Positions 4,632-63,588 of a stretch of 64,000 nt of DNA are shown here, piece by piece. The translations under genes were made by a program, and so were the position numbers. The notes below the pieces were generated by a model that did no database searches, was not told the DNA's origin, and was given only the letters and a program-made list of their open reading frames with translations. How positions within the stretch are numbered: position 1 is the stretch's first letter; the number at the start of each line of letters is the position of its first letter. The stretch is from Liolophura sinensis (Eukaryota; Mollusca; Polyplacophora; Chitonida; Chitonidae). Location: NCBI RefSeq assembly GCF_032854445.1, contig NC_088302.1:29543979-29607978 (forward strand). The letters are read 5' to 3'.

Positions 4632-6205
4632 GTAGACTTTCATATAGCATTGGTGCTGTACATAATGACCATCGTATACCCTTGGCGCTGCAAATAGTCA
4701 CTTTCATAAAAATGAGTGAATGAATGCTTGGCGTTTAACGTCGCAACTTTTCAGTCATAAGACGAAGCATTAGGTGTGTGAACATATAATGAACAAGGCA
4801 TGCCAACCCACCCAGTTACATTATACTGACACCGGGTCAACCAGTCATGTTTCCTTGCTCTAACCTTTCAATGCTTGCAAGTCAGGCAGTAGTAAGTGTC
4901 AGTTTTTAAGTCTTTGGTATGACCCGGGTTTAATTCCGGTGTCCCCCGACCCGGACGAGGCGGACGCTCTAACCATTAGGCCACTGAAGCCGTGGACTTT
5001 CATAGAGCATTGGTACTGCAGTCATTGACTTTCACATAACAATGATGCTGCACACAATGATTTTGACATAACATTGGTGTTACACACAATGACTTTCACA
5101 TAACATTGGTGTTACACACAATGACTTTCACATAACATTGGTGTTACACACAATGACTTTCATGTAACATTGGTGCTGCACACAATGACTTTCATATAAC
5201 ATTGGTGCCTCAAAGAATGACTTTCATATAACAATATAACATTGGTGCTACACACAATGGCTTTCATATAGCACTGGTGTCTCACAGAATGACTTTCATA
5301 TAACATTGGTGCTGCACATAATGTATTTCATACTGCACTGGTGCTGTACATGATGACTTTCATATAACATGCTGCACATACTGACTTTCATATAACATTG
5401 GTGCCTCACAGAATGACTTTCATATAGCATTGGTGCTGCACATAATGACTTTCACATAACATTGATGTTGCACACAATGACTTTCAAATAACATTGGTGC
5501 TGCACATAACGACTTTCATATAGAATTGGTGCTGCACATAATGACTTTCACATAACATTGATGCTGCACACAATGACTTTCATATAACATTGGTGCTACA
5601 CATAATGACTTTTATATAGCATTGATGCTGCACATGATGACTTTCATATAACCTTGATGCTACACATAATGGCTTTCATATAGCATTGATGCTGCATATA
5701 ATGACTTTCATATAATGTTGGTGCTACACATAATGACTTTCATATAGCACTTGTGTTACACATAATGACTTTTATATAGTATTGGTGCTGCATATAATGA
5801 CTTTCATATAGCATTGATGCTGCACACAATGACTTTCATATAATATTGGTGCTACACACAATGACTTTCATAAAGCATTGATACTGCACATGATGACTTT
5901 CATATAACCTTGATGCTACACATAATGGCTTTCATATAGCATTAATGCTGCACATAATGACTTTCATATAATATTGGTGCTACACATAATGACTTTCATA
6001 TAGCACTTGTGTTACACATAATGACTTTTATATAGTATTGATGCTGCACATAATGACTTTCATATAATATTGGTGCTACTCATAATGACTTTCATATAGC
6101 ACTTGTGTTACACATAATGACTTTTATATAGTATTGGCGCTACACATAATGACTTTCATATAGCATTGATGCTGCACACAATGACTTTCATATAACAATC
6201 AACAA
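4632..6205. repeat. 32-bp minisatellite array, interrupted by a SINE
   Basis: The unit is approximately ATGACTTTCATATAACATTG plus GTGCTACACATA. Roughly 37 copies stand between 4995 and 6205, with a few degenerate copies at 4632-4708 left of the inserted SINE. Units vary at a few fixed positions (ATAG/ATAAC, TGCTG/TGCTA, CACA/CATA). Alternating sub-runs around 5600-6180 repeat as longer blocks. Confidence 0.93.
4709..4994 (-). repeat. tRNA-derived SINE (second family) inserted in the 32-bp array
   Basis: Read on the minus strand it starts with a tRNA-like head (TGGCCTAATGGTTAGAGCG, box A-like, then a GTCCGCCTCG segment) and ends in a GACGTTAAACGCCAAGCATT tail with ATTCATTCACTCAT. It is flanked by ACTTTCATA on both sides (4700-4708 and 4996-5004), a target-site duplication that is itself part of the satellite unit. 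This family's tail recurs at ~15150 and ~42170. Confidence 0.75.
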
Positions 6206-27933: not shown

Positions 27934-31896
<3,963 letters not shown>

Positions 31897-36919: not shown

Positions 36920-37068
36920 TCAGCACGTCGACTCTCCAGGCTGTTCGAACCTCTTTAACTTCCCTTTGAAGAACACGATATTAATTAATTGACCAGCAAA
37001 ATCCAGAGCCTCGAAGAAAGCAATAACGCTGATGCCTAGGTAGAGAGCCAAAGATCCACCAATGTCAC
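36920..37068 (-). CDS. DEG/ENaC exon 10: TM2, GIS selectivity filter, short C-terminus and stop
   Basis: 149 bp: 2 nt finishing Cys, 48 codons and TGA at 36922-36920. The acceptor is GTGTTTATATTTCACAG. It encodes C-DIGGSLALYLGISVIAFFEA, where GIS is the GxS selectivity filter and DIGGS the conserved TM2 entry. The cytoplasmic tail is short (about 30 residues, basic KGKLKRF, ending GESTC) and lacks an ENaC-type PPxY motif. The residue at the degenerin position, just before DIGG, is Cys where relatives mostly carry Gly, Ala or Ser. Its codon is split by the intron. No confident poly(A) signal lies close by. AATAAA on this strand occurs near 36097-36092, about 820 bp downstream. Confidence 0.95.
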
Positions 37069-40000
37069 CTGTGAAATATAAACACAAGCTTGTATCAAAC
37101 AGTCACAGGATGAAAACGGAATGGTTGTCTGAAATCTTTTGTAATTTCCCAGAGAAATACAGCAAGTGAAATATAATGCTTGAAGTAAAAAGTGACCCAA
37201 TCTGCGGTAAAGTATTTAGATTAAATACTTACAGGCTAAGTCAAATAGTCCGTATGAAGTCTGCTGTGTTATCGTAGTCTCTGTCAGCTCGGCGAAGTAT
37301 ATATCCAGTTGTAAAAAGTTGTTTCTACAACAGAAAATTTATTGTATAAGTCATTCGTTTAGGAACATCGTGTTGTCAAGATACCAAAAGAAACAAATCC
37401 AAGCGGCAAACCGTGTAAAATAAATTAGACTTTATAAATAAAAGAATAATAATAAGAATAATAATAAAAAGAATAATAAAAGAGAGGTAATAACCCTGGT
37501 TGTATTGTATCTAAAGATCAATGTCTCATTTCCTCGGCCTGTTGTGTGCATGTGCCTGCCACATTGTTTTTGAATTTGGCTGAATTTGGCCTATGCAAAT
37601 AAACAGTCACTACATATTTCCAGATTCCATGTTCTACCTTTTAGTATTACAGGTAAAGCCTGTACACAATCATCATTGTCTGTCCTTCACAATTACGATT
37701 ACATGAAACCAATCTATGTTGAGCACATGTCTGGGCCTACTGACATGCACTGAAATTCTTATATTGGCAATATTTCAGTTCCGCATTTCACAACAGTCAC
37801 TGTCTAAAAGTTTTAAGGGTTATCATAACGTCAGCAAAATATCTACCATATTGTGTCGAGAGTTAGTGCTGATCAACAAAAACTTACAGATAAAATTTTC
37901 CGTTAATCTTTGTACTTTCAACATAATCCTCCAGTTCCGTCTCGTACTCGGCCACGTGATTGAGAGACTTCCGAATATCATTTGTCACTGCGTCCGTGTC
38001 CTGAGCTAAAGATGGCGTCTCAAGCGATTTAAGGATCTTTTGTGACAACCGGAAATCGCTAAATCGAAATTTAATTGGTTCAATGAGATTCCACATGGCA
38101 GTTCCGGCGCGAGCAATATCGTCCATGAGCTGCTTGACTTTCATGGTAAGGTCCTGTCAACAACAAAATACGACAACTGGTTAAAAGCAGGAAACTACGT
38201 AAGAGGTACACAGACAGTCATCATCACCGAATATTACCGACATAGCTTAGACTTTATTTAAACTCAGGATGGGAGAAATTCGTGTAAAGAAATGAATTTA
38301 AAAGTCACGCTTTATTCCTTATATGTATATATCTAGTAAAGGAGCGTTTTGTGCCTTTGCAAAATGTTTGGAAAATAAATAATTCTGAATAACCCTAATC
38401 CTCATTATGTACATTACTCAGCGAGGTGACACATCGAAACAAACTACTGGATATTTATGATCGCTTCATCATTGTTAACTTATTTAATGTGATTCCCTGC
38501 CATCACAATGCTGGCTCCCTCCCCGGCCGTACGTGGGAAGGTCTGACAGCAACCTGCTGATTGTCGTGGGTTTCCCCCGGGCCCTGCTCGGTTTTCTCCC
38601 ACCATAATGCTGGCGACCGTTGTATAAGTGAAATATTCTTGAGTATGACATAAAACACCAATGAAATAAATATTCAGTGTGACAGAATTTACACCCAACA
38701 GGCTTTTTATACGAAACATCATCTAGCATGTGTGACACATAAAAAACTAAGCAGGTATATTTCATTTAGTATATATTCATGAGAGTTCAAATATAAATCA
38801 TTAGTAAGAAAAGTCATCATTACTACCATACAACAAACATTAAGTTGGTTAGGCCATTATAGCAATCTGATAGGAAATTCGAAAATAAGCTTAATTGTTT
38901 CATTCTCTTTTAACAATGCTTGTATCGGGAAGAAAACAGAGCAGGAATTATTAATCCATTGCTATTAAATAATTCCGGGGTTCCGTGGAGTCTTTCAAAG
39001 GAGTAAAATTCAGTTCTGAATACGATTGTCTTGAAATACATGAGAGTGATTATATTGGACACAATAGCAGTCGGAGCTCACACAATGCTACGGAGACGAA
39101 CACTGCGAGAATACATGATTTTTACTTTTCATACGGCCCGCTCAAAGAACCGAGCTTGATTCGTTTTTCCCAATTAATTACCCTCAATATGAATGGCCAT
39201 GCATTGTTGATACCGGCAGCTGTCAACTCTCTGTTCGATGGCTAAGAAAACCCATATGTTGAGCCTGATAACGCAGACTTTCTTCTCCATTTACACCCCG
39301 TAATGCTGGTATGCCGCTTGTTACCGTCTATACATTATTAACCAGTTGGACATATGGAACAAGTAGCTTTGAGCCCAAAGAAAATAATGCAATCTGTATG
39401 ATGAAATGCAAACATGAATCCACTATGGACATTACTCAAAACAGCTTCTGTCCTTGCATTTAAGCTGACCCGGATTTCAATGTCAGCTTGCCGGATAATG
39501 GAACTCTTCACAGGGAACAAAAGAAAAATATGACCAATACTGTCCAAGTAAAATACGAAATAAAACTAGAATTTATTGTTTATTTATTATTATTTACTTT
39601 CTTTTGTCTTTCAGGGACAATTGCAGTTTTACACTTTGAGGCAAAACTGCTTTCTCTATACAATGGGCCTTCCAGCAACCTGCGGATGGTTGTGGATTTT
39701 CCTCGGTTTTGCTTCCACCATAAAGCTGATTGTATAGGTGAAATATTTTCGAGAACGGCGTTTAACCCCAGTCAAATAAATAAGTAATAGATCTATTCAG
39801 TGAGGTTTAATATAGTTTTAAAGATAGTTTTTAAACAGTGAACAGGATATCAACGGCCGAAATGCGATACGAAATCGAAAATTATCCATATCATCTGAAA
39901 AACAGTATACCATGTTAAATCAGGCTCTCCTAAACTGCTTTCATTGGTAACAAAAATTAGTATCTATTTAACTCGAATGAAAGCCTGTGTTGATAAGGAA

Positions 40001-43000
40001 TAAGCAGTTATACCCATATTATTTATTTTACCAAATAATTTGTTGGATAGCCCAGTATTAACTGAGCGTCACATGTACCATCAATTCAACCATCTGTTTC
40101 ACTGATCAGAACGCACTGTCATTTATTATTTTTCAGATGTTTAATCTGGCGAAAACCCTAAATTGGCTAATTTAACTATTTACATAGAGTGACAGTCAAA
40201 ATAATGCCATAACTGATGTTTACTGTGGTATAACTTGTCTTCCTGCCACACGTTTGGTTCTTCAAAAACTCTGTTAGCTGCATAATCAGCATGCCTTTCA
40301 TCGTTACTGACACATAATGGAGAAGACACCTTTGACTTTACCCAAAGAACAGAAGCTTGTCCGATTCCGCCCCGCTTTGCCGATCGAGCGTTTCGACTAT
40401 AACTAAATTAACCAAGTCCCGGTAGAGTGTTTTTTCAACACAAATCAAGCAATAAGACACGCTAATCTGAACGTAGGCTTCTGACCGCAACCAAAATATA
40501 ACCTAATATAGAGAGAGCGCGTAGAGAGTTGAAAAGAGCAAATAGAACTAATCTGAAAATCGATTCTCATGCAGTGGCAAGCAGAGATTTGATAAGTGGT
40601 CAAGCAAATAATCGCGTGCACGGCGTCTCGGACGGGATGAGATGGCGTGGTTGCCCGGTAAAGTATGGTAGCCAATCGGAGCCGGTCATTTCGGCGTCAC
40701 TGAGGAAACAGCGCGTCTTCAGGAAGCCGGATCCCCGGGCCACATCACACAGTTTCTCGCGGGATGTTTCCATAGCTCTCGAAGACACGGACTGTCTCAT
40801 ACAACTCGTCTTGTGTAAATGGGGAATGACACGACCTGCCGCTTCCCGCCTTCAAATAAGGGCGCATATTACACTGTATCAATATCGCCAAGGGTTTTAA
40901 AAGTGGCTTAGATTGTCGTGTTTGCCTCCATGATTTACTACCGGGGGATTTATGCCAGATCGTGATTATCACAAAAAATACTAACCATGTTCTTCAATAG
41001 TCAGACTTGGGTTTTATGGCTGACACATGTGTTTTATACGTTACTACAATCACAGGTTCAAAGATGGCGTATTCTACCTCAATAGACTTGTTGACCTGCT
41101 GTACTGGGTACTCATAGCCCTCTAAAGTAAGAATCCAAATTAGCCCCCCTTCCATTTCCGGAATCGCGAAATCTTTAAACCAACATTTCACACATGTACC
41201 TGCACAACTCAGATGATCTTACAATGATTAGTGTGATTTTATCAAAAAATTGCACGATGATAATTTCATCCTATTATACGATGGATGCATCCATTTGTCC
41301 CCAAATAAAACCCAGCAATTTTCAATACCTACGAATTTAAACTTCTGTTTTTGGCACAATGGAAAACCTTTCTTTGTCGGGCGAGTGACATGCGTGAGAA
41401 TGTCAAGCAAGGTATTTAGATTGCACATGATATTGCAGACGGTTACTACAACGATAGTCTGACACACTGTATATGAAGCCTCTTTTTTGGGATACAGTCA
41501 GCCAGGTATACGTTGTAATCGTTTTGTCTTCACCTAGGCACACACATATATAGATGACGATGTCGAATTACCAATCAAGAACAAAACCCTTGCCCATCAA
41601 ATTTTCCACTTTGTCCAATGGAAGGGAAATCGAAGAGCTTCAGGTCTAGGAATAGATTTGCGAGCCTAGATACGGTGGTCTTTGTGTCATGAATACAACT
41701 ACACCTGGTCCACTCTCAGGTAATATAAATACCTGGGTGATCCCTTGTATTTGCATGTGTCGAAGAAATCGGTCATTTTTGTTCGGGATAAGTGCCCTAG
41801 GTCTTTCTCGAGTGATCAGAAAACCTGTCTGTGTCACATTGAGTTTGCATGAGGCAAAGAAAGCTGGAACCTGTCGTTTGTCCCTAAATCACAACTTACT
41901 GACACTTAATCAGATGGGACGTCAATTAACAGCTGCTCCCGGACTTGAAGTCCCACAGAATAGCGCTACAACACGCGGAGATTTACGCTGGAACATTGCA
42001 TGGTGCCGTAAACCAAGCTGCTCACTCACTGCCCATGTGTTCCATTTTTCGTGAAAACCTTCGTCGTGAATAAAACATAGTTCCATTATACATCCACTTA
42101 AAGAATAATTGCAGACAAAACTGCGCGAATACACAAACTAAGCCATGCTCTGCAACGTTTTTGGCTCTTCGTGAATGAATGAATATAGCTTAACTCTACT
42201 TATATTGCAGCCATATTGTGGCGATGAGTGTTCGTTACTCTCGCTATACAATATGGCACAATTATAACCAGGCCTATAAATTGCTGTTCTACAGTAAAAT
42301 CGCAAAAGCGGATATGTGATGGTGAAGGACGTGCTTTAATTAGGAGACATGCCATTCCTTCCTGATTCTTTCCTCCTTTCATAAGAAAAAAAAACATATG
42401 GCATCCAAGAACATCCTTGTGCACTTTCTTTTCTATCATCTGTGTGGAATGTTCAGTTTGAATGTGATGGAATTTATCGTTTGTTGTGTGTATATATGTG
42501 TGCTTGGGATTTTATGTCGTACTTAACAATTTTTCCTTTACAAGTCGACGAGGAGCCATTAGGTGTGTGTTCATATGCTGTGTCTCCTTGTGGAATAACA
42601 TGTTGCTACAGCAAATGTATTTATTATTAGTGCTTAATGGCAGTTGTGCCTGCGCACTGCTAATATTATAATTAATAATGTTACTTAAAGGTTTACACCT
42701 ACCACTCAGTTTACAACCTCTATAACCCAAGAGAGTTCACACGTTAAAATAGAAGCTGTATGGTATCAGGCTCAATAATCTTGAGCAGCAGTTCCGCACT
42801 CTGGGAAATATACTTAACCACAAGATAACTATTCCCACATTCATCTCACACACTACGTTAACGTCATCTGTTCTGAACCGGAGGTGTGTTTGTAGGCTTG
42901 AAACATTAGCCAATACTCTTATCTAATCTCCCACACAACGTACTTGCAATTTTTTAAAAACGAAGATGGCCTTGCCTTTTTTGTCCCAGAGAGTTTCTGC

Positions 43001-46000
43001 ATAAATTTTGAATAGCACTGTTATTCAGTGTTCATATTCACATGACAAATTTGTAAGACATCGCACTGGAAATATGCCAGTTGTCAAAACTTAAGGAACA
43101 CACATCCAAACGTTTAATTCAATTCGAATTATCTGCATTTGAAAATAATATTCCAAGATTCTTTATAAGGACGTTAATATGGTCATTATTTCGCATGTAC
43201 GTATATCTGCTTGTTTCTACAACACTGTAGTCAAACATACCAGATAGAATAATTAAACATTCTTTGAAAGGCCACGCCTTTCCAGTCTTGATATTGTTTT
43301 CAGTAAATATGTTTTGTCTTCATGAAAAAAAAATGGAAAATACATGAAGGCTTTAATCAAAGTTTCTAATTTAAGCGTCTAACCAAACGTTTTGTGTATC
43401 ACCCGGTACCAAAGGATTAAATTAGACATTACTCCTGTCTACACTACTTTTACCTTCCTTGTTGTCTCTGTTTCAATGGAGATTTTCTACAAAACAGTAC
43501 CTTACAAATTTGCATATTTCATTCACCATTCAGTAGTTGCATTACTCACCTCAGCAGCTCTCCGTGAATCCACCAGTATGGGCAACCCAAGCCTTTGGGC
43601 TAATTTACTCTTGTTTAACTTCCCTTCCGTGTATTCTTTTTTAACTTTAGAAAACTCCCCCTGAAGAGTATTCAGTTCAATCTGGAGAGATTCCAGTGAG
43701 TTCCAAAGCTGTTTCGAAGACGTTTCGATTGTTCTGGCCTCGGTTTGAAACTGTTCATCAACAGTCACAAGTGTTCTGGCAAATGCCAAAACCTTTTGTC
43801 TATCTTTTGTGTAAGCTTCTTGAAGTTCGGTCAGTTCTCTGTCCATTTCTTGCATGACATCCCCTTCCACCAACTGAATAGTGCGGTAAAACTGTGCCAG
43901 TGCTTCAGAATATCTTTCAGTACCAGTATGTCTGCCGTGGGTGACATTTTTCAGGGCCTTATACTCCTGTGTAAGTATGCCTTTCAAATGTGCGGAAATC
44001 TTCAGTATGGATTCTGTGGTTTTATTGTACTTGTCACGTGACTCACGAAATTCCTTATATTTCTGACCATAACCACTAACAATCTGCTCTCGGAAAATCT
44101 GAATGCCCTTGGTAATTTCGGGGATGAGTGGGGTGGACGTATGAGTTGAGTAATGCTTGGTTACTATCAGCGTTTCCAGTTTCTCGATGATGTTGTTCAA
44201 GGTGCTGTTTGCCTCAGCCACAGAAGACGACGCACTGATTGTATCGTAGGAGTAGCTTTCAGAAATATCCTTTATTGTAGCTTTGATACTTCTGTCAAAA
44301 TGATAGAAGGACAGATGACTGAACTGATTGAAAAGCTGGGCTGTAAACATGACAGAGTCGTTCAGGTCTCTAAGAGAGGCATTCATGCTACTTATATCGG
44401 CCGTTAACAGTTCTCTATACTTGGATGCATTGTCGGATAATATTCGCACTTTATTTACACTTCGGTTAAAATTGCCCGCCAGTTTGATGAGGGTGGTTTT
44501 GTCGTGTTTAATCACGTCCTTATCCATCCGGTGGTAGGTGTCTCTGGCATTCTGGAACTCCTGCTGCAGTTTGCGCTTGTCTCTCAGCGTTCTGATTTCA
44601 GACTCGGCGGCGTAGGACGACATGGCCGAATGGGAGATTCCCACGTCGTACTCCACACGCTCACAGTCCGGGGAGCACGAACAGTTCAGGAAATCTGAAA
44701 CACCGAACTAATATGTTAAGGAGACAGGATGTATGTAGGAAACAGTATCAAACATGTAACTTTTGGTGAATAAAATATTAGCTTATATACGTTATAATTT
44801 TCATGATTAAATACCAGCCTAATATATATAATTCGCTCTTTCAGTCATGACTTACATTTAGCTTTGTGTTACTGTTGCTTTAAGATTTTAATAGGAAGCA
44901 TGATACATAATAGTTGATGTTAAAACGTGCCGGAAAAGAGCTGAAATGCAAGGACAATGGATCGTTTGAAGGCAGTGTTTGAATACCACAAATCAAACAG
45001 AATGGGCTGTGATAAGAGTTTGATGTCAGCAACGTTCTTGTTGGGGAAAAAGGTGGCTAATCTTTGCAGGAGACAAAACCAATACGGCGTATCGAGGAGA
45101 GTCTCTGCAGGAGACTGAAAAGTCACACAAAACGATATCAAAGTAGTATGTTCTGAACATGGTGGTCATGTCGTCTTTTGCTTGCAAGGAAAGAGACATG
45201 ACTGTAGCTTATCCCTGAGGCTCATTTCTATCAGTTAAGAAAACGTGTCAACATAATCAGCCTTTATGTTTTGCTTCTCGAAAAGTTTGCACCCAGGATT
45301 CAATACCATTAAGCATCACAGGGAGTCATTACGTTGATTGGCCACAGCGCCGAGGAGCACGACTTTCTGGAGAGAACACGACTGCTTTGTATCTGTTCGC
45401 TGACCAAACGCCGCTGGGGTCTTTAAAAGGGCGGAGTGTAATTTCCGGAAATCTTAAGTAAGGATGGAGAAACGTGAGAGTTTGGTCGAACTTCATACGC
45501 GATAACAGACAACCATGCGCCATGTCTTAACTAGGATAACCTCCTCCGCGGATGTTGGCAAAATAAGATGCCATCTTGGATGGAATGTCATTCTGTTTTT
45601 CACGGAGCAAAAGAATAAACACAATTTTCCATTGACATACGCGAGGACTATTAATTAAGGTTTAAAATATGTAATCCATCCTCAACAAACACCGAAATAT
45701 TGATGCCCACGCATGCGAATGAGGCATGTGTACGTGCTAGTGTGTAAAATCAGGTAAAACTAAGAACTAAGATAGTAAAGCCCTGTTGATATAATCGTAC
45801 AGTGTAATATCGATAAGATATTCTTATTTATCTTCAGCTTAATACAATCTCTGTGTCCATTATTTTGGCTGCATTTATGTTTTATCATCATGGTATACAT
45901 GTCATTTATTGGACAGATTTCCGGGGGCCTCCTTGGCTCAGTTGGTTAGCGCGCTAACGCAGCGTAATGACCAAGGAGTCTCTCACCAATGTTGTCGCTG

Positions 46001-49000
46001 TGAGTTCAAGTCCAGCTCATGCTGGCTTCCTCTCCGGCCTTAAGTGGGAAGGTCTGACAGCAACCTGCGGATGGTCGTGGATTTCCCCCGGGCTGGGCCC
46101 GGTTTCCACCCACCATAATGCTGACCGCCGTCATATAAGTGAAATATTCTTGAGTACGGCGTAAAACACCAATCAAATAAATAAATAAATAATTGGACAG
46201 ATTTCATATACCGTAGCTCAAAAGAGTTTAGCTGGCGAATTTACTGCGAGTGGACATTGTGCAAACTGATATACTAATAACAATCCGGCATGGACTTCTG
46301 TGTAAATTCAATATTAGAGTGTCGTGACAAGTTGCAACACGTGTCACAGGATGGTTTTATAGCCTGTAGCAAAATCAGTGTATAGAATGTAAAAATGATT
46401 TGAAATGTCGTACCTGTGGTAAGCTCAATACAACGGAAGTACTCGTTAGCTGAACACTCTGTCAGGTTACCTGCAAAACAAATGTGACAATGGACTGTAT
46501 AATAAAAGCATACAGAACGATAAGGTTATCCCATTTTTGGCCTGTAGGCCTACTATGCTTTTGACTTTTAACATAGGCTTGTAGCCCAAAATGGTCACAT
46601 CTTTTCTTAGAAAAACAATTAATACAGCAAATTTTAAATGTAACAGATCAAAAAAAGGCCATCGGGTTTCAAGTCACTGTGGCCAGTGCTGATGAATGTG
46701 AACATAATCTGTGTTAAAGCAAAACGAACATAGCCTTAATCATCCAAAATTTTTGAAACATCTATTAGAATTTTTCTGAAGTTAAACTTCGAGAATTTTG
46801 AAAGTGAAAGAATAATGTAAAACTGAAACTCGATGTATAACTCGTCGTGATTTAGATAGGCATCAATTCTCAGTCCGCGGCAATAAACTACGAAATATGG
46901 AATCCCAGCTATGACGGAACCCGTACCGTGGCTAACAAATCAGTCAAGCAAGGACTACAGTACCTCCGCCGTATCGGATCATCCAGGGCATCCCACATTT
47001 GCAGCGTTTTCCCCAGTGTTGGGCCTCACAGCGATGAAGACAGCCTTTGGCGTATCGAGCCTCAGGGTGAGGGTTGTGGAACTGTGACAATCCCCATCTG
47101 TCACCGTCCGTGGATTTATCAAAGTGCTGGAATCAGACCGAACAAAATACACACGTACTAAAATATACTTTATTTATTTTATTTTATTTGTGTTTAACAC
47201 CCTTCTCAATTTTTCACTTATATGACGTCATGGGTGGCGGAAGTCGCAGTGCCCATCACCTTCCATCACCAGGTACAATACGACATACTAACATGACATG
47301 TTGTTGTCTACACATTCGAATTCCACCAATAAAGGAATTTGAAAGTCGACTATGGAAACAAATATCGACTTTCATAGATTTTCGGATAATGTGACAAAAT
47401 GTTCGCTCATCCATTTACAACAAGCACGTGCCTTATATTTCACAAATGACTCGACTATGGATGTTGTCATTCATCAAAATGTTCGGCAATATAAAGATAA
47501 TGAACAGTTTTGGATTTTTTTCTTCTCTACCAGTATTACACTATATGAGCTGTTCACTATAAATAGGAAACTTCCGTCCTTCACCAAGTATATCTGACAA
47601 ACCTCTTGACTTAACGTCATTGCCGAAACAACTGGACCTCATTTGTTGACAGCCGATCAATGGTATGGAGGCCAACGCTTTATGGCAACGAGCCATCGAG
47701 GGCCTCTTTTATATGCTTTTAGAAATTGCCATCTTGTAATGTCATCGACTTATAACTGCCGGTCAAACATAGCAGGGCGATGTAATTGGATCGCACTTCT
47801 GCTTCCATCTCCTGTAAGTGGCTTTACCTGAACTTTAGTAATGGACACCGATGAGTGCGAACCAACTGGCGCGAAATAGCCAGTGGTGGAGAGTTGAGGG
47901 TGATCAGACGGATCGTGGATGGCAAACTTCACGCCAACGGCAGACCGGGGGCCCAACAAGTATTCATACTGCTCTACATTCAACACAACGGATAGCCCAC
48001 TAGCGGTGCCTGTGAACATAGCATGGTGATGCTGGCTTTACAAGAATACCATTAATACCCGTAGAAAGTAATAATAACATGAACATAGGCCAGTTAGTTG
48101 GCTGAATAAGCACAAAAAACATCTAAAAAAATCTTTCAATATATCCCATACAGTATCAGAAATGTTCAAAATGATCCCGAAAAAACATCGTAACACTTTA
48201 ATCTTTAAAAAAAAATATATATATTATAGTTTGTTTCGAAGGTTGTTTTGGAAACTGATTTTCATGAACAGCTGGAATGAAACCATAACTGGGGTAAATT
48301 GACAAGAGGCCGTATTTTACCGGTTACGTGTAATCATTTGCCAGCTATCACACTGTCGTCGCTGCTCTAGTTTTACGCTCTATGTCGTACGTCTTAAATT
48401 GTATACCAAATATTGACCTGGGACGTCCACTATGGCTGATGGGCGATATAGGAATGTTTTTAGATTTACAAGAAATATATATGTTGTAAAACGCCTTACA
48501 TAATACCTTGGCTCAAACGCCAATAATCAAGAATTCATACAAGTTAATAAAACTATAAAAATCAAATTAGAGATCATACCAAAGTAAGATGGAAATTGCC
48601 TTCGGGTCAGTTGTGTTTGAAAAACGCATAAGGCAAAACGGCTTTGATTGCTTCTTTCCTAGAATTGATAATAACACGTTTCATTCGATATCAAATGAAC
48701 ATAGGATGATATATTACGATGAGATCAAATGAATCGTCCTATAGAGGCGGAATAAATTAAAACAGGCAGGCATAACTTTCAGGAAAACAAATGTATGAGC
48801 GCTGTTCCGATAGCTGCGTCTTTAGATTTCGCGTTACAAACAGCTTATTGGGCCACAGATTGAACACCAGGCCAAGAATAATGCAGTATTCCATACCCAG
48901 TCTAAATCACATTATTTCTCGGCTATATTATGATCTCCGGATTTGCCAATAGATAATTGCTATTAGTTTGCCGATTAGCAAGAAAATGGAAAGAGGAAAT

Positions 49001-52000: not shown

Positions 52001-55000
52001 ACACATACTGAACACCGATTTCACGTGATATGATAACATTATATGCATTGCAGTGAAAATCGCTCATATATAACTTTTCAAAGTTTATGGGAAAGCTTAT
52101 TTTATGTGTTCATCGAACTAAGTTTACATGAATTATATGTCTGACATGTACCGCCACGCTAAGTACCTACGAAATCTTTATTAGTGATTATTCTCCACGT
52201 CAACAGGCGACAAGCCACCTTGATTAGGTCTGTGTGTTTGCAATAAATTCCGGGCTCACGATACCCGAATATTTACATGAGAACAGAGAGCAATGTTCCT
52301 GATCCATTTGGGTGTGCGTGGCGGGTATGTTAATTTAGCTTCAGCCAGGAATATCTGACACAGACCGGTGATAACGTGTTCGTCTCTAATTCCAACTGAC
52401 GGAGTGCAATTCGTTTGTCCTGTTTAAAATCACCTTACTAGAGATTTAGACAACAGATGCAAGGGTCATTAAAACAAAGTTACACACAGGGTTCAAGTAG
52501 CGCCCTCCCTGAGGTCGCATTGAGCTCGGGTTTCCCCCCTGGCCTTCTTGTTGATTGGAACGATCCAACGTCTTTTGCAATCTCCAGCCTTTGACGGCGG
52601 GTTGCCGACTTTGCCCAGGTTTAATATGTGAGAGTGCGTGTTGGCCAACCATTGGATCACAGCATTTGGCTTCCTGGGAGCTTTACGACCGTTATCAGCT
52701 AATTTACGGCTGTTTCTTGGTAAGTTATGGCACTCCACTGTTAGCAGGGAAGCCGGCGTAGAAAGTTCATTAGCCAAAGTGGCAGTCAGTAGTCCCCTCT
52801 GGGAATGACAACTACGACTATGACGTTATGTGAAAACACCTTAAATTTGTCCAAATTGAGGTGTTTATGCGTGCGTTGACATGCCGCATCTTTGAAGCAC
52901 CTGGCTTTGTAAAATATGGAGCCTATTAGTCGAGCACGAATCAAAACTAAAAAACCCTGTAATATTGCGAACTCGCATCAGCCATTTAAAATATGAATAT
53001 GTCCCGTATAAAAAGTGAAAACTGCGATTAGCATAAACATAATTTACAAAGGAGGTCTAAAGAGGTTTTCTATAAAACTTATTGCAAATACAGAGACAGT
53101 CACATATGTATGCAACTTACCGCCTGATTTTATTTTTCTTGAACTTGGTGAAAATTTGTAACACAATCCATAGTCTGTAAAAATTTCTGTAAAATTTTGT
53201 ATTCCACAAGGTCTGCCAGCCCACGTGCAACTGAAAAAAGAAGTAAACACTAGAACGATAACCATGGTAAATGTGCGCACTAATATATAATCCAATATAA
53301 GACCTCTTCAAACTCATACACGTTCTGTATCAAGTGTATGTATATATACAAAACATTCGTTTCCGTACTAGATATTCTTCAGAAGATTTCTGTCCACATA
53401 TTCTGGGCCAAACTGACTTAGCTATGTATAAGGCACTCTCTTTTGCGAGACTTTTTCAAAATAGTTCCCTCCACATATTTAGGCCCAAAATCACACTTAC
53501 CTATGTACAAAGCACTCCTTTCTGTGAGACATCTGCCTCATAAAGTCACTGTATGATTTGTTTAAAGGGGATGTTTTTGTGAGAGCTTGTGTAAAACTTA
53601 ATCCTCGCCTGTCTTTCTTCCCGTGCACAACATCATGTAAAAAACTATACAGTTCGGTTTTATTGGCCTCTGTAATTCTGCAAAGAAAAATAATTCCCAT
53701 ATTTGTTTATAGGAAATTTTACAAACGTAGATATTCTGCAAATCCTGATCGCCTCATTCGGAAGGAGTAAAACATGCATGATATATAACTGTATAATTTA
53801 TTATACATATTTGGGCATAACGATCAACCAGTACAACTACATGAAGCCATTTGACAGCTGTAATAAATCATTTATCTCGAATATAAACATAAAATTCATT
53901 CATACATTTTGAATAAAGCATTAAAGATGTATTCCTGGCCAATCGCTGAGATTAATTGTCCCAGTAAGTATTGATTCACTTTCCACTTTACTTTTTAAGT
54001 TAGCCACTTGGTAAACACCAATGTTAATCAACATTATACACAAGAAATTTTCCTCTGTTTCTTATGCAGTAAGGTAACTGCCAAGCGTAGAACTCTACAT
54101 GGATGTATATTACAGCTCTACAGAAAACAGAACAGGCTGAAAAATAAGCGAACACTTGGGAAATTCTGTTATGGGCGTGTTGCGTCCATGCCATCGCCTA
54201 CGTTGCATCAGTCAAGACCCAACCATTAAACACGCTGTATTCAGACAAGCAATTTCCACAACGGTGCTAAAATGATTTACATTTCCATAAAGAGAGCAGA
54301 CTTGCTGTATATTTTATTCATATACGCAAGTTTTATTGTGGTCCGAGCAAACTACAAAAAAAAATTTAATCTGTTTAATTTAACAGAAAGTCTGTTATCT
54401 GAGTGATAATAAAATATATGCTGTTATTTGCAGCATATTATTCTGTTAAATATAATACAAATATTTTATTATTTCAACATAGCCATTCAATTAGGCTAGC
54501 AGGATATTATGTTAAATGCGACACATTATTTTGTTATTATGACAGAACATATTCCAGCATCACTCAGACAACTTAGACTCTCAGCATTTCTGTTAAATCG
54601 AATAAATTAATTTTAGTATTTGAGTGTATGAAGACAGCCTATCCTTTTCTGTTTCAAAACAAAAATAGAAAGCAGACGCGACAATAACAACCATACAACT
54701 GTGTGTTTGGTTGATAATTTAAGATTTTAAATTTAGATCAGACAAAACTCAGAGGTGTTATGAAGCTCCTTATCTTAACCTACATGTATGTTTGGCCTAC
54801 AGAATCTATAGATATATCATCAGATATGAGGAATCAGTGTAGAGTAGTCTGCATGGACAAAGTAGGTCTATTGTCTCTCACTTATTGTCAAGTATAGAAT
54901 TCCGGTAAAACTAAGTTAAGAACTACTTTTTTTTACTCCCAATGCTATGAATGTGAAGACTAAACTTTAAAGCGGTCGCACAATTTTCAATTTATTTCTA

Positions 55001-61000: not shown

Positions 61001-63588
61001 CGATCTGTTTGATGTCCGCGGATAATGACTTTTGTGACGCAGGAAGCTTTTAGAACAATCAAGTAGACGGGGCGAATTACCAACATTGGTCCATCAACAG
61101 AAAGTCTATAGAAGCTGGGGCTATCCTTAGAAAACGGCACTTCTTTCAAAACGGTCGGTCTGTTTGACGACCAAACCGAACTAATTAGCGCGACGTCGCT
61201 GATCACTATCATTAGGAATTCGCTTTATCTGGTGTCACTGAGAGTAAAACTGCACCCAAAGAAGAAAATATGGGAATTCTCTCTTGAGAAACGATACAGA
61301 TGATAGCTAGCAATTTTGACGGAAAGAGAAGCGAAAATAGCCAAATTTTAAAAAGCAGCTTGTAGTGATTTTAAATGAATTATTTACTGTTTTACTAACA
61401 CTGGGGCAATTCTCCATTTTGGTATGAATTTGCATGGGGCACCGAATAAAACAAATAACATGAATCATGAGACATACGTTCTAAGGTCACGCATGTTAAG
61501 AACAGCGACTTTAAATGACTAATAATATATGATAACATGAATATGGATGGACCCACTCTCTGAGTCAGATCGAGTTTTCGTTTTCTATCTGACCAGTTGC
61601 GTATTAGATTGCTAGGCGAAAGGCCTATAGCTTACTATTTATACACTCACATTCTTACTTCCCTGTTTTAAAAAGTGAAGTCGACTTCATTTATGCGTAT
61701 TTTGAAACGACAACTTTATCTTGATCTAGCAGCCATAGGATTGGCCTGATACAACTGTTATTTCCAGTCGATACAAAGAGCGGCTAATGGTTCTGAGTGC
61801 TATAGTTGCAAGTGAAGGCCAGGTGGATGTGATATTTTTGTGATATTTTTATCAACATTGTGAATGAAGCGCCCCATTACAAGTGCACTAGGGTGATTGG
61901 TGGATCAGTCATACATGAATATATCAGGGGTTTCCCAGGCCCCTTGCCATGGTCGGGGTCGAGGAATCACCGCTGGGGTCTTTCACCCATCAAGCTACCC
62001 CTCCTCGAATATTTTGATATTTTTGACGGTTTTTCTCGAAAATAAAATTAATTCTAACCCAATGAAAGTTCATTTATAATGTCAACAAGTTTTGAATGTT
62101 TGGACATATTGTAAGGCAATAATTGTTACGTCATATTATTAAGACTCTTGCCTATCAACCAATGAAAACATAGAATTCCGTCTGCTCACTACGCAACTGG
62201 TTTGAGCGTACGCACACAGATTGCATAGGACCCTGTGATACCTTACCTCATGTTAATACAGGTTATAACACATTACTTCCAGAAAATGAAGAACCTATGT
62301 AGTTTATTTGATTGGTATTTTCAGCCGTAGTCAAGAATATTTCATTTATACGACGGCGGCCAGCATGATGGTGGGAAGTCTGTATGTGTATCTGTAGACA
62401 CGATTTTGTCCAAGCATATCTCCCAAAATACTGTGCCGATTTTGATGAAACATGCCATTCATATTATTTACTGGAATCCCCCTGTCTGTCTGTCTGTTTG
62501 TAGACACGATTTTGCATCTCTCCCAAACTACTGCGCAGATTTCGGTGAAACTTATCATACATCTTATCAATCATCTGAACTTGCACATGCTTACAATTAA
62601 TGGCAATCGGGTAATTATTTTCAGAATTATCCCCATTTAGGACTGGGAAATAGTGTTTTTCAATACATTCAGGTTTTGTGCATGCAATTCTTCTTACAAT
62701 ACTGAACCTGTCTCTGTGAAACTTAGCATACCTATCATCTGAATTTGCGCATACTTGAGTTCAACTACCAAGGTACTTAGTACAATAATGGATTTCCATA
62801 TAGACTGTATTCTCTTCTGATTGTTACATTTCTCCATTCAAACTTGATGTATCAGTAGTGCAATCCGTGCAAACCACGAATGGTCCATGGAACAAGCTAT
62901 ATGAAGCCAAACTAAGAAACATGACGTTCTGTCATTTCCTTTAAAGTTTTCCTAGTTTTATTTTTGGAATTGTTGGGGATATAAGGAGGTATTTCGGACA
63001 TCCTGATTGTAGTTTATATTAGAAATTCTACATTTGTCCGCTGAGTCCACTATACGCAAATTTCAGAACATAAAACACAGATTAGCTGCTTCCATATAAA
63101 GGACCTGCATTAAATGCTCCTTGCAATGCAAACCCTGTTTGTACTGGACAAAAACAGTACTCCATCTTACAGCGAAACTTCCCATCATGATATGTGCCAA
63201 AAGATTTTCAAATATATTTTAACTGCACTGATGTAAGATCCACAATGCCATGTCATCATATAGCTCATTTCAACACCATTTCATTTCGACTTCATACCAC
63301 ATGAGTAAACAGGATTTTATCTGGACACTTCTTGAAATAAGGAGGTGTGTCTTGTGATTTTCTTCTGTATGGTGGTATTTTGCGTAACTCCTCATAGACT
63401 ACATCCATACCTCAACTTACCTGTATTTGTTTAAGTTGCATATTGTTATTGTCGGGTACTCCATGCTCTCCACGTAATGTAAATCCATATTAGTGTGTGT
63501 GGCATCGGAGAGGAATTTCATAACTCTATCTGTTATCTGATAACTAACCAAGGCCAGGCACACAATTAACACGAGGAACCACGTCAGT
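36920..63588 (-). CDS. DEG/ENaC-family sodium channel subunit with giant extracellular coiled-coil insertion (10 exons, 5'-partial)
   Basis: Ten exons, in transcription order: 63588-63421, 53677-53501, 53230-53121, 48009-47828, 47126-46964, 46470-46414, 44694-43550, 38153-37888, 37324-37233, 37068-36920. The splice phases chain without a break and yield 835 residues ending in a TGA stop. Family members are trimeric, amiloride-sensitive, Na+-selective plasma-membrane channels with two TM segments, cytoplasmic termini and a large cysteine-rich ectodomain. Seen here: TM1, ICNLN after TM1, CTWAGRPCG, TDYGLCY, the CLHRC and CKC cluster, CSCSPDC, LQLDIYF before TM2, DIGGS and the GIS filter. There are 14 extracellular cysteines, the same number as in ASICs. 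The unusual part is ~440 residues of coiled-coil-like sequence where ASICs have a short knuckle helix. The N-terminal HG-motif exon is missing from the window. Introns reach 9.7 kb. Which ligand or stimulus gates it (proton, peptide, mechanical) cannot be told from sequence. Confidence 0.93.
37233..37324 (-). CDS. DEG/ENaC exon 9: pre-TM2 beta strand
   Basis: 92 bp with 1 nt finishing Leu, 30 codons and 1 nt carried over. The acceptor is TTTTCTGTTGTAG and the donor GCCT|GTAAGTATT. It encodes NNFLQLDIYFAELTETTITQ and QTSYGLFDLA, matching the family block N-x-L-x-L-x-I-Y-F-x-x-L ... Q ... Y-x-x-x-x-L that enters TM2. The carried-over T begins the codon for the residue just before DIGG. Confidence 0.94.
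37437..37485. repeat. (AAT/AAG)n simple repeat in the intron
   Basis: Interrupted AATAATAAGAATAATAATAA-type run between exons 8 and 9. Confidence 0.85.
37888..38153 (-). CDS. DEG/ENaC exon 8: end of the insertion and approach to the pre-TM2 strand
   Basis: 266 bp: 88 codons plus CT, phase 0 in and phase 2 out. The acceptor is TTTTGTTGTTGACAG and the donor TATCT|GTAAGTTTTT. It encodes DLTMKVKQLMDDIARAGTAM, then a mixed helical region and NHVAEYETELEDYVE, ending in INGKFY, which runs into the conserved L-NNFLQLDIYF of the next exon. Again there are no cysteines. The last ~25 residues may correspond to the normal alpha6-to-beta12 knuckle segment of ASICs, which would place the inserted block upstream of them. 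Confidence 0.9.
38508..38671 (+). repeat. SINE family S1, 5'-truncated, intronic
   Basis: ATGCTGGCTCCCTCCCCGGC through CAGCAACCTGCTGATTGTCG to AAAACACCAATGAAATAAAT. Antisense to the host gene. Confidence 0.88.
39660..39785 (+). repeat. SINE family S1, degenerate fragment, intronic
   Basis: CCAGCAACCTGCGGATGGTT, then CTTCCACCATAAAGCTGATT, then CGGCGTTTAACCCCAGTCAA ATAAATAA. Several internal deletions indicate an old copy. Confidence 0.8.
42170..42227 (+). repeat. SINE family S2 tail fragment, intronic
   Basis: TTCGTGAATGAATGAATATA followed by GCTTAACTCTACTTATATTG and CAGCCATATTGTGGCGATGA. Confidence 0.55.
43550..44694 (-). CDS. DEG/ENaC exon 7: last cysteine cluster fused to ~350-residue coiled-coil-like insertion
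   Basis: 1145 bp: 2 nt finishing Asp, 381 codons, phase 0 out. The acceptor is GGTGTTTCAG and the donor GAG|GTGAGT. The first ~30 residues are canonical: FLNCSCSPDCERVEYDVGIS, equivalent to the CxCxxPCxxxxY block that leads into beta10 of ASICs. From residue ~31 the sequence departs from the family. It becomes a long run rich in E, K, Q, L, S and T with no cysteine, no hydrophobic membrane segment and few prolines, in heptad-like stretches such as QEMDRELTELQEAYTKDRQK and LESLQIELNTLQGEFSKVKK. Eight N-x-S/T sequons (NRS, NAS, NAS, NDS, NST, NKT, NVT, NKS) are consistent with an extracellular, glycosylated stalk. Inference: a multi-helix spike projecting from the knuckle. Long open frames on the opposite strand are shadows. 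Confidence 0.93.
45922..46191 (+). repeat. SINE family S1, complete, perfect 14-bp target-site duplication
   Basis: The tRNA-like head has box A (TGGCTCAGTTGG) at ~45935 and box B (GTGAGTTCAAGTCC) at ~46000. Then come AGCTCATGCTGGCTTCCTCT, CAACCTGCGGATGGTCG, ACCATAATGCTGACCGCCG and the tail ACGGCGTAAAACACCAATCA with (AAAT)n. It is flanked by ATTGGACAGATTTC at 45908-45921 and 46192-46205. It lies in the 1.7-kb intron between exons 6 and 7, antisense to the gene. This is the reference copy for the family in this window. Resemblance to molluscan MetaSINE-type elements is from memory. Confidence 0.96.
46414..46470 (-). CDS. DEG/ENaC exon 6: micro-exon of the thumb
   Basis: A 57-bp exon, too short for ordinary ORF calling. 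The acceptor is CACATTTGTTTTGCAG and the donor ACCACAG|GTACGA. With borrowed nucleotides it reads G-NLTECSANEYFRCIELTT-D. It supplies the two cysteines that normally lie between the CxC and CxCxPxC clusters, plus an NLT sequon. Phase 1 in and phase 1 out both match its neighbours. Confidence 0.87.
46964..47126 (-). CDS. DEG/ENaC exon 5: thumb cysteine cluster
   Basis: 163 bp, phase 0 in and phase 1 out. The acceptor is GGTCTGATTCCAG and the donor GGAG|GTACTG, a modest match. It encodes HFDKSTDGDRWGL, then YAKGCLHRCEAQHWG and KRCKCGMPWMIRYGG. The pattern Y-x-x-x-C-L-x-x-C ... C-x-C ... P is the family thumb (YxxxxCLxxCxxxxxxxxCxC). Its reading frame opens on the minus strand across this stretch and then hits stops, so the exon was identified by homology pattern and phase. 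Confidence 0.88.
47165..47240 (-). repeat. SINE family S1 tail fragment, intronic
   Basis: TTTATTTTATTTGTGTTTAA, CACCCTTCTCAATTTTTCAC, TATATGACGTCATGGGTGG: diverged S1 tail just upstream of exon 5. Confidence 0.55.
47828..48009 (-). CDS. DEG/ENaC exon 4: palm/beta-ball GLSVVLNVEQ block
   Basis: 182 bp: 2 nt finishing Gly, then 60 codons, leaving phase 0. The donor is CAG|GTAAAG. The acceptor (GCTATGTTCACAG) has a weak pyrimidine tract, but the phase fits exactly. It encodes GLSVVLNVEQYEY, VGVKFAIHDPSDHP and a hydrophobic GYFAPVGSHSSVSI stretch. These match the family pattern GLxLxLNxxxxEY ... AGxxVxIHxxxxxP ... PG, which forms the palm and beta-ball core. Confidence 0.93.
48010..53120 (-). 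other. Intron 3 of the channel gene (5.1 kb)
   Basis: Bounded by a GTAAGTTG donor at 53120 downward and a TTCACAG acceptor at ~48012. Contains a D1 repeat (48291-48400) and a 16-nt G tract (49184-49199). Open frames at 49794-50126 and 52493-52777 have no recognised family. Confidence 0.75.
48291..48400 (+). repeat. Dispersed ~105-bp repeat D1, intronic
   Basis: GGGGTAAATTGACAAGAGGC, CAGCTATCACACTGTCGTCG, TTACGCTCTATGTCGTACGT. It shares the 20-bp core exactly with the 32.4-kb copy. Confidence 0.8.
53121..53230 (-). CDS. DEG/ENaC exon 3: CTWAGRPCG / TDYGLCY cysteine motif
   Basis: 110 bp with 1 nt finishing Ser, 36 codons, and 1 nt carried over. The acceptor is CTTCTTTTTTCAG and the donor GGCG|GTAAGTTG. 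It encodes CTWAGRPCG, NFTEIFTDYGLCYKF and a basic tail, SSRKIKSG. This is the best-conserved stretch of the family ectodomain (CxWxGxxC ... F ... TxxGxCYxF), so the family assignment is secure from this exon alone. The NFT sequon falls within it. The following intron is 5.1 kb. Confidence 0.95.
53501..53677 (-). CDS. DEG/ENaC exon 2: start of the finger region
   Basis: 177 bp, phase 2 in and phase 2 out. The acceptor is TTATTTTTCTTTGCAG and the donor CATAG|GTAAGTGTGA. It continues NKY-R into ITEANKTELYSFLHDVV. Residues are charged and variable, as in the finger domain of the family, which differs most between paralogues. N-glycosylation sequons are NKT and NKS. It ends in RKECFVH, whose Cys begins the conserved EF-x-x-C element found before the CxWxGxxC motif in relatives. 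It follows a 9.7-kb intron (53678-63420), the longest in the gene. Confidence 0.9.
54340..54636. mobile_element. Foldback MITE-like element, family M1, intronic, longest copy
   Basis: The left end ACTACAAAAAAAAATTTAAT runs into TTTAACAGAAAGTCTGTTAT and CTGAGTGAT. The right end is its imperfect inverse, CATCACTCAGACAACTTAGA ... TTTCTGTTAAATCG ... TTTGAGTGTA. The centre carries CAGGATATTATGTTAAATGC, as at 18.3 kb. No coding capacity. Confidence 0.75.
57901..57980 (-). repeat. Dispersed ~105-bp repeat D1, intronic, inverted
   Basis: The plus strand reads AAAGACGTACAGCGTAGAGA, CGACGACAGTGTGATAGCTG, ACAAATAG: reverse complement of the D1 core. Confidence 0.75.
62300..62378 (-). repeat. SINE family S1 tail fragment, intronic
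   Basis: AGTTTATTTGATTGGTATTT, GCCGTAGTCAAGAATATTTC, ATACGACGGCGGCCAGCATG, then ATGGTGGG. Truncated at the mid region. Confidence 0.8.
62379..62770. repeat. Degenerate ~100-150 bp tandem repeat, three units
   Basis: Units share (G)TAGACACGATTTTG, TCTCCCAAA(A)TACTG, CCGATTTTGATGAAAC and ATC(A)TCTGAA(C/T)TTGC. The third unit (62670-62770) is the most diverged. Contains short CTGT simple repeats. The GATTTTGATGAAAC word recurs in many animal interspersed repeats. Confidence 0.6.
63421..63588 (-). CDS. DEG/ENaC exon 1 of 10 in window: TM1 and ICNLN motif
   Basis: The acceptor is a pyrimidine-rich tract ending TTCTGTTTCAG and the donor reads CAG|GTAAGT. The exon is 168 bp: 1 nt to finish a codon, 55 codons, and 2 nt carried over. 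It encodes LTWFLVLIVCLALVSY, the first membrane helix with the W typical of family TM1, then a short extracellular linker and the signature YPTITICNLNKY (family pattern FPAVTICNxN). The final AG joins the first A of the next exon to give Arg. The open frame runs on upstream of 63588 to an apparent Met at 63689, but those residues (polar, Lys/Asn-rich) show no family N-terminus, and the acceptor at 63589-63591 is better. I therefore treat that stretch as intron. Confidence 0.92.

Follow-up and report, generated by a model that had tools for sequence, protein, structure and literature searches.

What becomes of the gate of a DEG/ENaC channel when the helix at its knuckle is exchanged for a domain that makes up more than half of the ectodomain? 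The question is raised by a gene of the chiton Liolophura sinensis, found on the minus strand of a 64,000-nucleotide stretch of the genome (here called the window; G000:C8:29543979-29607978 of a 609-Mb assembly, the same assembly being searched for paralogs). The product is a subunit of about 930 residues, and a block of 441 of these follows strand beta10 and ends just ahead of the strand matched by ASIC YIGENILVLDIFF in the alignment; it therefore replaces the knuckle helix alpha6, between beta10 and beta11, and leaves the turn before beta11 in place (strand and helix names are those that we take to apply from the ASIC1 structure). We lean, if only slightly, towards an account in which the replacement is a folded, probably N-glycosylated, mostly helical ectodomain that would act as a recognition module driving the gate.

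The insert is encoded by two exons. Exon 7 (43550..44694), which starts FLNCSCSPDCERVEYDVGISHSAMS, supplies the CxCxPxC cluster, beta10 and the greater part of the helical insert (43550..44617, from SYAAESE), and exon 8 (37888..38153) supplies the last part (37899..38153) followed by KFY ahead of the strand that precedes the second transmembrane segment (TM2), running on into LNNFLQLDIYF of exon 9. A sequence-only reading of the window had described a cysteine-free block of about 440 residues with eight N-glycosylation sequons between CxCxPxC and LQLDIYF, an unbroken frame with consistent splice phases, and 14 ectodomain cysteines that all fall outside the block. The gene model bears this out: the insert between HSAMS and KFYLNN has 441 residues, no cysteine and eight sequons, every modelled exon junction is AG/GT with phases in agreement, and all 14 ectodomain cysteines lie elsewhere. 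With the exons of the first transmembrane segment (TM1) and TM2 in frame and the segments assigned by homology, the ectodomain has 770 residues, more than double its size without the insert. The distance between the CxCxxxC cluster and the pre-TM2 strand is about 460 residues, compared with about 40 in the aligned ASIC rows. In 100 dinucleotide shuffles of the window the longest open reading frames averaged 157 residues and never passed 227; the real window has a frame of 394 residues, its second longest being of 184 residues. Pfam scans found no family that covers the insert.

By its sequence the gene is a member of the DEG/ENaC family, as had been proposed together with the placing of the insert at the site of the knuckle helix, which the alignment with ASICs supports. 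Pfam ASC (PF00858) matches the product at 1.1e-48 (166.9 bits, against a cut-off of 23.6), and the exon for TM1 and the first ectodomain strand (LTWFLVLIVCL...ITICNLNKY; 63421..63588) matches alone at 1.7e-13. The residues of this exon are identical in P0001, the NCBI protein 'acid-sensing ion channel 5-like [Liolophura sinensis]', which agrees exactly with the window exons through exon 6. Through P0001 we located the finger exon (ITEANKTELYSF...HRKECFVH; 53501..53677), its AG/GT ends and frame being verified; adding the N-terminal residues of P0001, which have no coding match inside the window, gives a conceptual protein of 932 residues. Exon 3 (CTWAGRPC...YGLCYKF; 53121..53230) and exon 4 (GLSVVLNVEQYEYL, palm and beta-ball; 47828..48009) were recognised by Pfam ASC, the latter also by the genome search for ASC exons, and are followed by exon 5 with the thumb cysteine cluster (46964..47126) and exon 6 (GNLTECSANEYFRCIELTT; 46414..46470). 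Beyond the insert, exon 9 (37233..37324) carries, by homology, beta11, the beta11-beta12 linker and beta12 (NNFLQLDIYFAELTETTITQQTSYGLFDLA), and exon 10 (36920..37068) carries TM2 with a GxS-type motif, here GIS (DIGGSLALYLGISVIAFFE), the C-terminus and the stop codon. As a separate observation, exon 5 (window 47126-46964) lacks the PxPxGxC cysteine retained in two other copies of the gene, L012 and L014, and one conserved cysteine is thereby left without its usual partner, presumably that of the ASIC1 pairing.

Sequons occur in the insert at about twice the frequency that its composition predicts (eight against 3.4, with the insert cut as 436 residues), and the domain is, on this sequence criterion, probably glycosylated. 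The excess would suit an insert that serves assembly, trafficking or shielding, as a glycan-rich cap or an intersubunit clasp with no direct role in gating. We consider this improbable, as a block of some 440-510 residues conserved in several molluscs would be a costly route to glycans.

The window gene is not alone in the chiton genome. A search with exons 7-10 gave 24 matches, of which those of exon-7 type mark nine places, the window and eight more, every one of them on contig C8, and a second query taken from one of the C8 copies recovered the identical nine places. The eight other copies, which with the window gene make up branch A, contain a homologous block at 25-31% identity (45% over one short piece), and six of them keep one uninterrupted frame of 389-430 residues across the match (26-31% identity). 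Of the remaining two, that at 19.28 Mb is split and that at 19.17 Mb has stops in the span, which could be an intron or decay. One of the six open copies, L010 at 29.73 Mb, has no phase-0 exon-7 donor in the coding frame near L010 5870-5980, which may point to a broken copy or to an assembly error; alignment A2 omits L010 as well as L013, which is split, and L014, which has stops. A second group, branch B, comprises four genes, two of them on C9 and one each on C5 and C11; here a single exon encodes the entire insert (473 residues in L017), branch A having one additional intron within the insert. Each of the 13 insert-bearing places (nine of branch A and four of branch B) lies close to ASC exons that run in its own orientation. 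Wherever the exons are readable, the paralogs share one phase at the exon-7 acceptor and likewise at the junctions ahead of the pre-TM2 strand and of TM2.

Comparison of the profiles of the two branches aligned 520 columns at 99.8% probability (E 3.7e-28), with flanking channel residues contributing to the score. Identity among the four branch A genes with complete exons 7-10 is 24-29% in the insert and 39-48% in the flanks; the corresponding ranges in branch B are 24-45% and 43-62%. For a single origin of the insert the support is weak: in a tree built from P0001, five B proteins, five chiton genes without the insert and two ASICs (13 rows), one branch sets the six insert proteins apart from the rest, with support of 65/95 and in 62% of bootstrap trees, and the branches are long. 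Among the chiton genes without the insert, L001 has SCECFQPC and, in another frame and through a putative joint, reaches the pre-TM2 strand after a short stretch; in L021 an exon for the span from CxCxPxC to that strand was looked for and not found. Two further features were seen beside the branch B genes: an insert fragment interrupted by stops (C9:10416096-10416514), close to the open gene at C9:10.397 Mb, and an open frame resembling a non-LTR (long terminal repeat) reverse transcriptase, recognised by eye, in an intron of the C11 gene (L018 5422-5923).

The character of the insert is helical. Its hydrophobic periodicity is strong and of the kind that an amphipathic helix shows, with z-scores of 11.0 at 3.6 residues, 9.3 at 3.5 and -0.6 at 2.0 (436-residue cut). 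The score for 3.6 is the higher of the first two in all 14 insert rows, but windows of 42 residues cannot resolve these periods. In these statistics L016 and P0002 are one gene, L011 was dropped because the cut failed, L012 and L017 were cut short and L020 is represented by exon 7 only. The prediction of AlphaFold2 for the branch B protein P0002, made with 10 sequences, has a mean predicted local distance difference test (pLDDT) of 65.5 and a predicted template modelling score of 0.48, the channel part being poor. The insert itself (about residues 390-862) is predicted to be all-helical, with pLDDT values of 80-96 over about 431-850, except for 66-71 at 571-590, and of 56-77 in its first 40 residues. 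The coiled coil of the sequence-only reading is kept as helix-like periodicity and refined, for this one well-predicted relative, to a predicted folded domain of several helices, which may or may not include true coiled coil. The solved folds nearest to the P0002 insert are generic helical bundles. TTYH (tweety homologue) structures were matched with a high root-mean-square deviation, below the level at which the tool is to be trusted for helical bundles; TTYH is a multi-span membrane protein, and the Pfam scans gave no match to a TTYH-like family. From the match between the A and B profiles we infer that the window insert may have a fold similar to that of branch B.

Two of the helices predicted in P0002, at 421-499 and 638-730, have 79 and 93 residues, and at 1.5 angstrom per residue would extend for roughly 120-140 angstrom. 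Such lengths invite the main rival to our account, that the insert is a mechanical lever or tether whose long helices anchor the channel to the matrix or to a neighbouring cell and pass force to beta11 and TM2. It fits with an insert that leads straight into the strand preceding the gating linker, and mechanical gating is known for some DEG/ENaCs, as described in the accessible text of PMC11026163. We regard a lever as a serious possibility, albeit a fairly unlikely one. The sequence-only reading had likewise proposed a long helical spike, repeated three times in the trimer, that could tether the channel or act as a lever; spike, tethering and mechanical gating are all conjectural.

The architecture extends to other molluscs. 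The homologue searches score only candidates that share exact words with the query, so its absence from gastropods, annelids or other phyla cannot be concluded from them. A protein search with the branch B alignment returned 10 proteins at E values up to 0.001 among 7957 candidates, six of which carry PF00858. Two of the six are from Liolophura (943 and 906 residues, the products of the L016 and L018 genes), and the others are from Mercenaria (954 residues), Argopecten (759 residues, without TM1), Mizuhopecten (960 residues) and Octopus vulgaris (887 residues); the other four of the 10 are contig-derived frames of 503-532 residues. TM1, insert and TM2 are all present in P0002, P0003, P0006 and P0008, the last being the Mizuhopecten protein, and two B genes of Liolophura are annotated with all three. 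The O. vulgaris model P0010, a 'degenerin del-10', stops at the junction that precedes the pre-TM2 strand in the chiton genes and has no TM2. Other database names for this architecture are 'acid-sensing ion channel 4-B-like', 'Acid-sensing ion channel 1' and 'uncharacterized'. The architecture is not unique, as proteins that have it were already in databases for other molluscs under these various names; in the literature searched we found no paper that names it.

How might such a domain act on the pore? Among solved structures, the channel core of the window gene comes closest to ASIC5 (99 bits) and that of branch B to ASIC2 (208 bits). FaNaC and WaNaC, which are gated by peptides and occur in molluscs and annelids, are, like the window gene, molluscan DEG/ENaCs with a GIS motif in TM2, yet FaNaC 7yvb scores lower (53 bits against the window gene and 114 against P0002), and among the solved structures FaNaC chains rank below ASIC chains for both branches. 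What makes FaNaC instructive is the position of the insert. In the FaNaC structure, according to the accessible text of PMC11026163, alpha6 of the knuckle helps to build the pocket for the neuropeptide FMRFamide; the window gene has the inserted domain instead of this helix. The five-residue beta11-beta12 linker has been proposed as a gating clutch (PMC9975279 and PMC3743763, in the portions accessible). In the account that we favour, the helical domain would bind an extracellular partner that may be soluble, on the matrix or on another cell, and its motion would be passed to the beta11-beta12 linker and TM2, with the pore opening or closing as a result; such motion could reach these elements because the ends of the insert continue into beta10 and beta11. 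An insert that diverges faster than the channel core, its sequons and an expansion confined to one contig all fit with recognition of varied partners. The C. elegans proteins MEC-4 and MEC-10 are also DEG/ENaC members, with a possible mechanical role, and are not known to have a large insert between beta10 and beta11.

A number of results weigh against a recognition module. The faster divergence of the insert can equally reflect weak constraint, and in pairs that include L019 or L020, where the flank is 25-33 residues, flank identity (25-36%) is hardly higher than that of the insert (23-29%). Window exon 7, modelled with 12 sequences, comes out as long helices, with a mean pLDDT of 48.9 that marks a low confidence. 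The alpha6 helix of FaNaC moves relatively little as the channel gates (PMC11026163, accessible text). The search with the branch A alignment gave one match among 7998 scored candidates, the 373-residue frame P0012, and no NCBI protein with a branch A insert, which leaves this branch without annotation support; within the limited reach of the search, branch A is known from the Liolophura genome and this one near-identical sequence. Three of the eight other A copies are possibly split or broken. Finally, the NCBI model of the locus omits exons 7-10: P0001 has 427 residues with TM1 and no TM2, and its last exon (DFRKLHSALL...NDSL, then a stop; 45316..45452, minus strand) lies upstream of exon 7.

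This last point bears on the possibility that exons 7 and 8 stand outside the mature channel message, the true product being the 427-residue form or the window copy being in decay. The sequence-only reading had itself named a separation of exon 7 or 8 from the channel exons as the outcome that would count against it, and P0001, by terminating in an alternative exon ahead of exon 7, touches on this in part. Decay would be in keeping with the missing thumb cysteine that L012 and L014 retain and with the broken appearance of some sister copies. Against both versions stand the open frames and good splice sites of exons 7-10, with phases common to the paralogs, the presence on another assembled contig of P0012, which is 97% identical to window exon 7, and the annotation of the two complete Liolophura B genes. 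We consider it very improbable that the exons are not part of the mature channel message of this gene; the alternative terminal exon of P0001 may be a misprediction or belong to a real truncated isoform. Expression of exons 7-10 would seem less certain for the window gene than for the architecture overall. The accessible text of PMC11068029 describes published Liolophura transcriptomes from five tissues.

The window also contains repeats. A 47-bp tandem repeat of about 82 copies with 94% matches (28080-31890) adjoins a (TA)61 run (27935-28057), and a 32-bp tandem repeat of about 37 copies occupies 4995-6197. A dispersed repeat, TAAGTGAAATATTCTTGAGTACGGCGTAAAACACC, is found at 46136-46170 and at six more places, giving seven copies with at most three mismatches where none is expected. 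The copy near 45930-46190 starts, by eye, with tRNA-like letters and may thus be a short interspersed element; ARAGORN (bacterial code) gave no match to the repeat, nor did Rfam at the gathering level.

The literature searched, which leaves most subscription papers, bioRxiv and supplements aside, holds no description of the insert in the accessible portions of its texts (including PMC9822975, PMC10507113, PMC9949801, PMC9234716, PMC11026163, PMC9975279, PMC3743763 and PMC11068029). According to the parts available, one family-tree paper excluded sequences longer than 1000 or shorter than 300 residues as well as segments that aligned poorly, and another trimmed with trimAl gappyout. Column trimming and length filters of this kind would be expected to hide the insert in published trees. 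No putative ASIC has been reported in the chiton Acanthopleura granulata or in Crassostrea gigas (PMC9949801, accessible text), and the reported lack of molluscan ASIC-type channels may be due in part to a derived, ASIC-like group with the insert. Names such as 'acid-sensing ion channel' can mask a different architecture, just as column trimming can remove it.

Tentatively, and with more doubt than attaches to the account of the single subunit, these genes could represent an unrecognised molluscan class of chimeric receptor-channels, in which the pore is that of a DEG/ENaC and the gating input has moved to a helical ectodomain assigned to no family, with a cluster of chiton sensors on one contig. 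The insert stands in for the helix of the FaNaC pocket, one strand away from the proposed gating clutch. If it does sense something, these channels, of which a single animal has as many as 13 variants and which have counterparts among bivalves and in octopus, would offer a natural system in which to learn how an added domain drives the DEG/ENaC gate.

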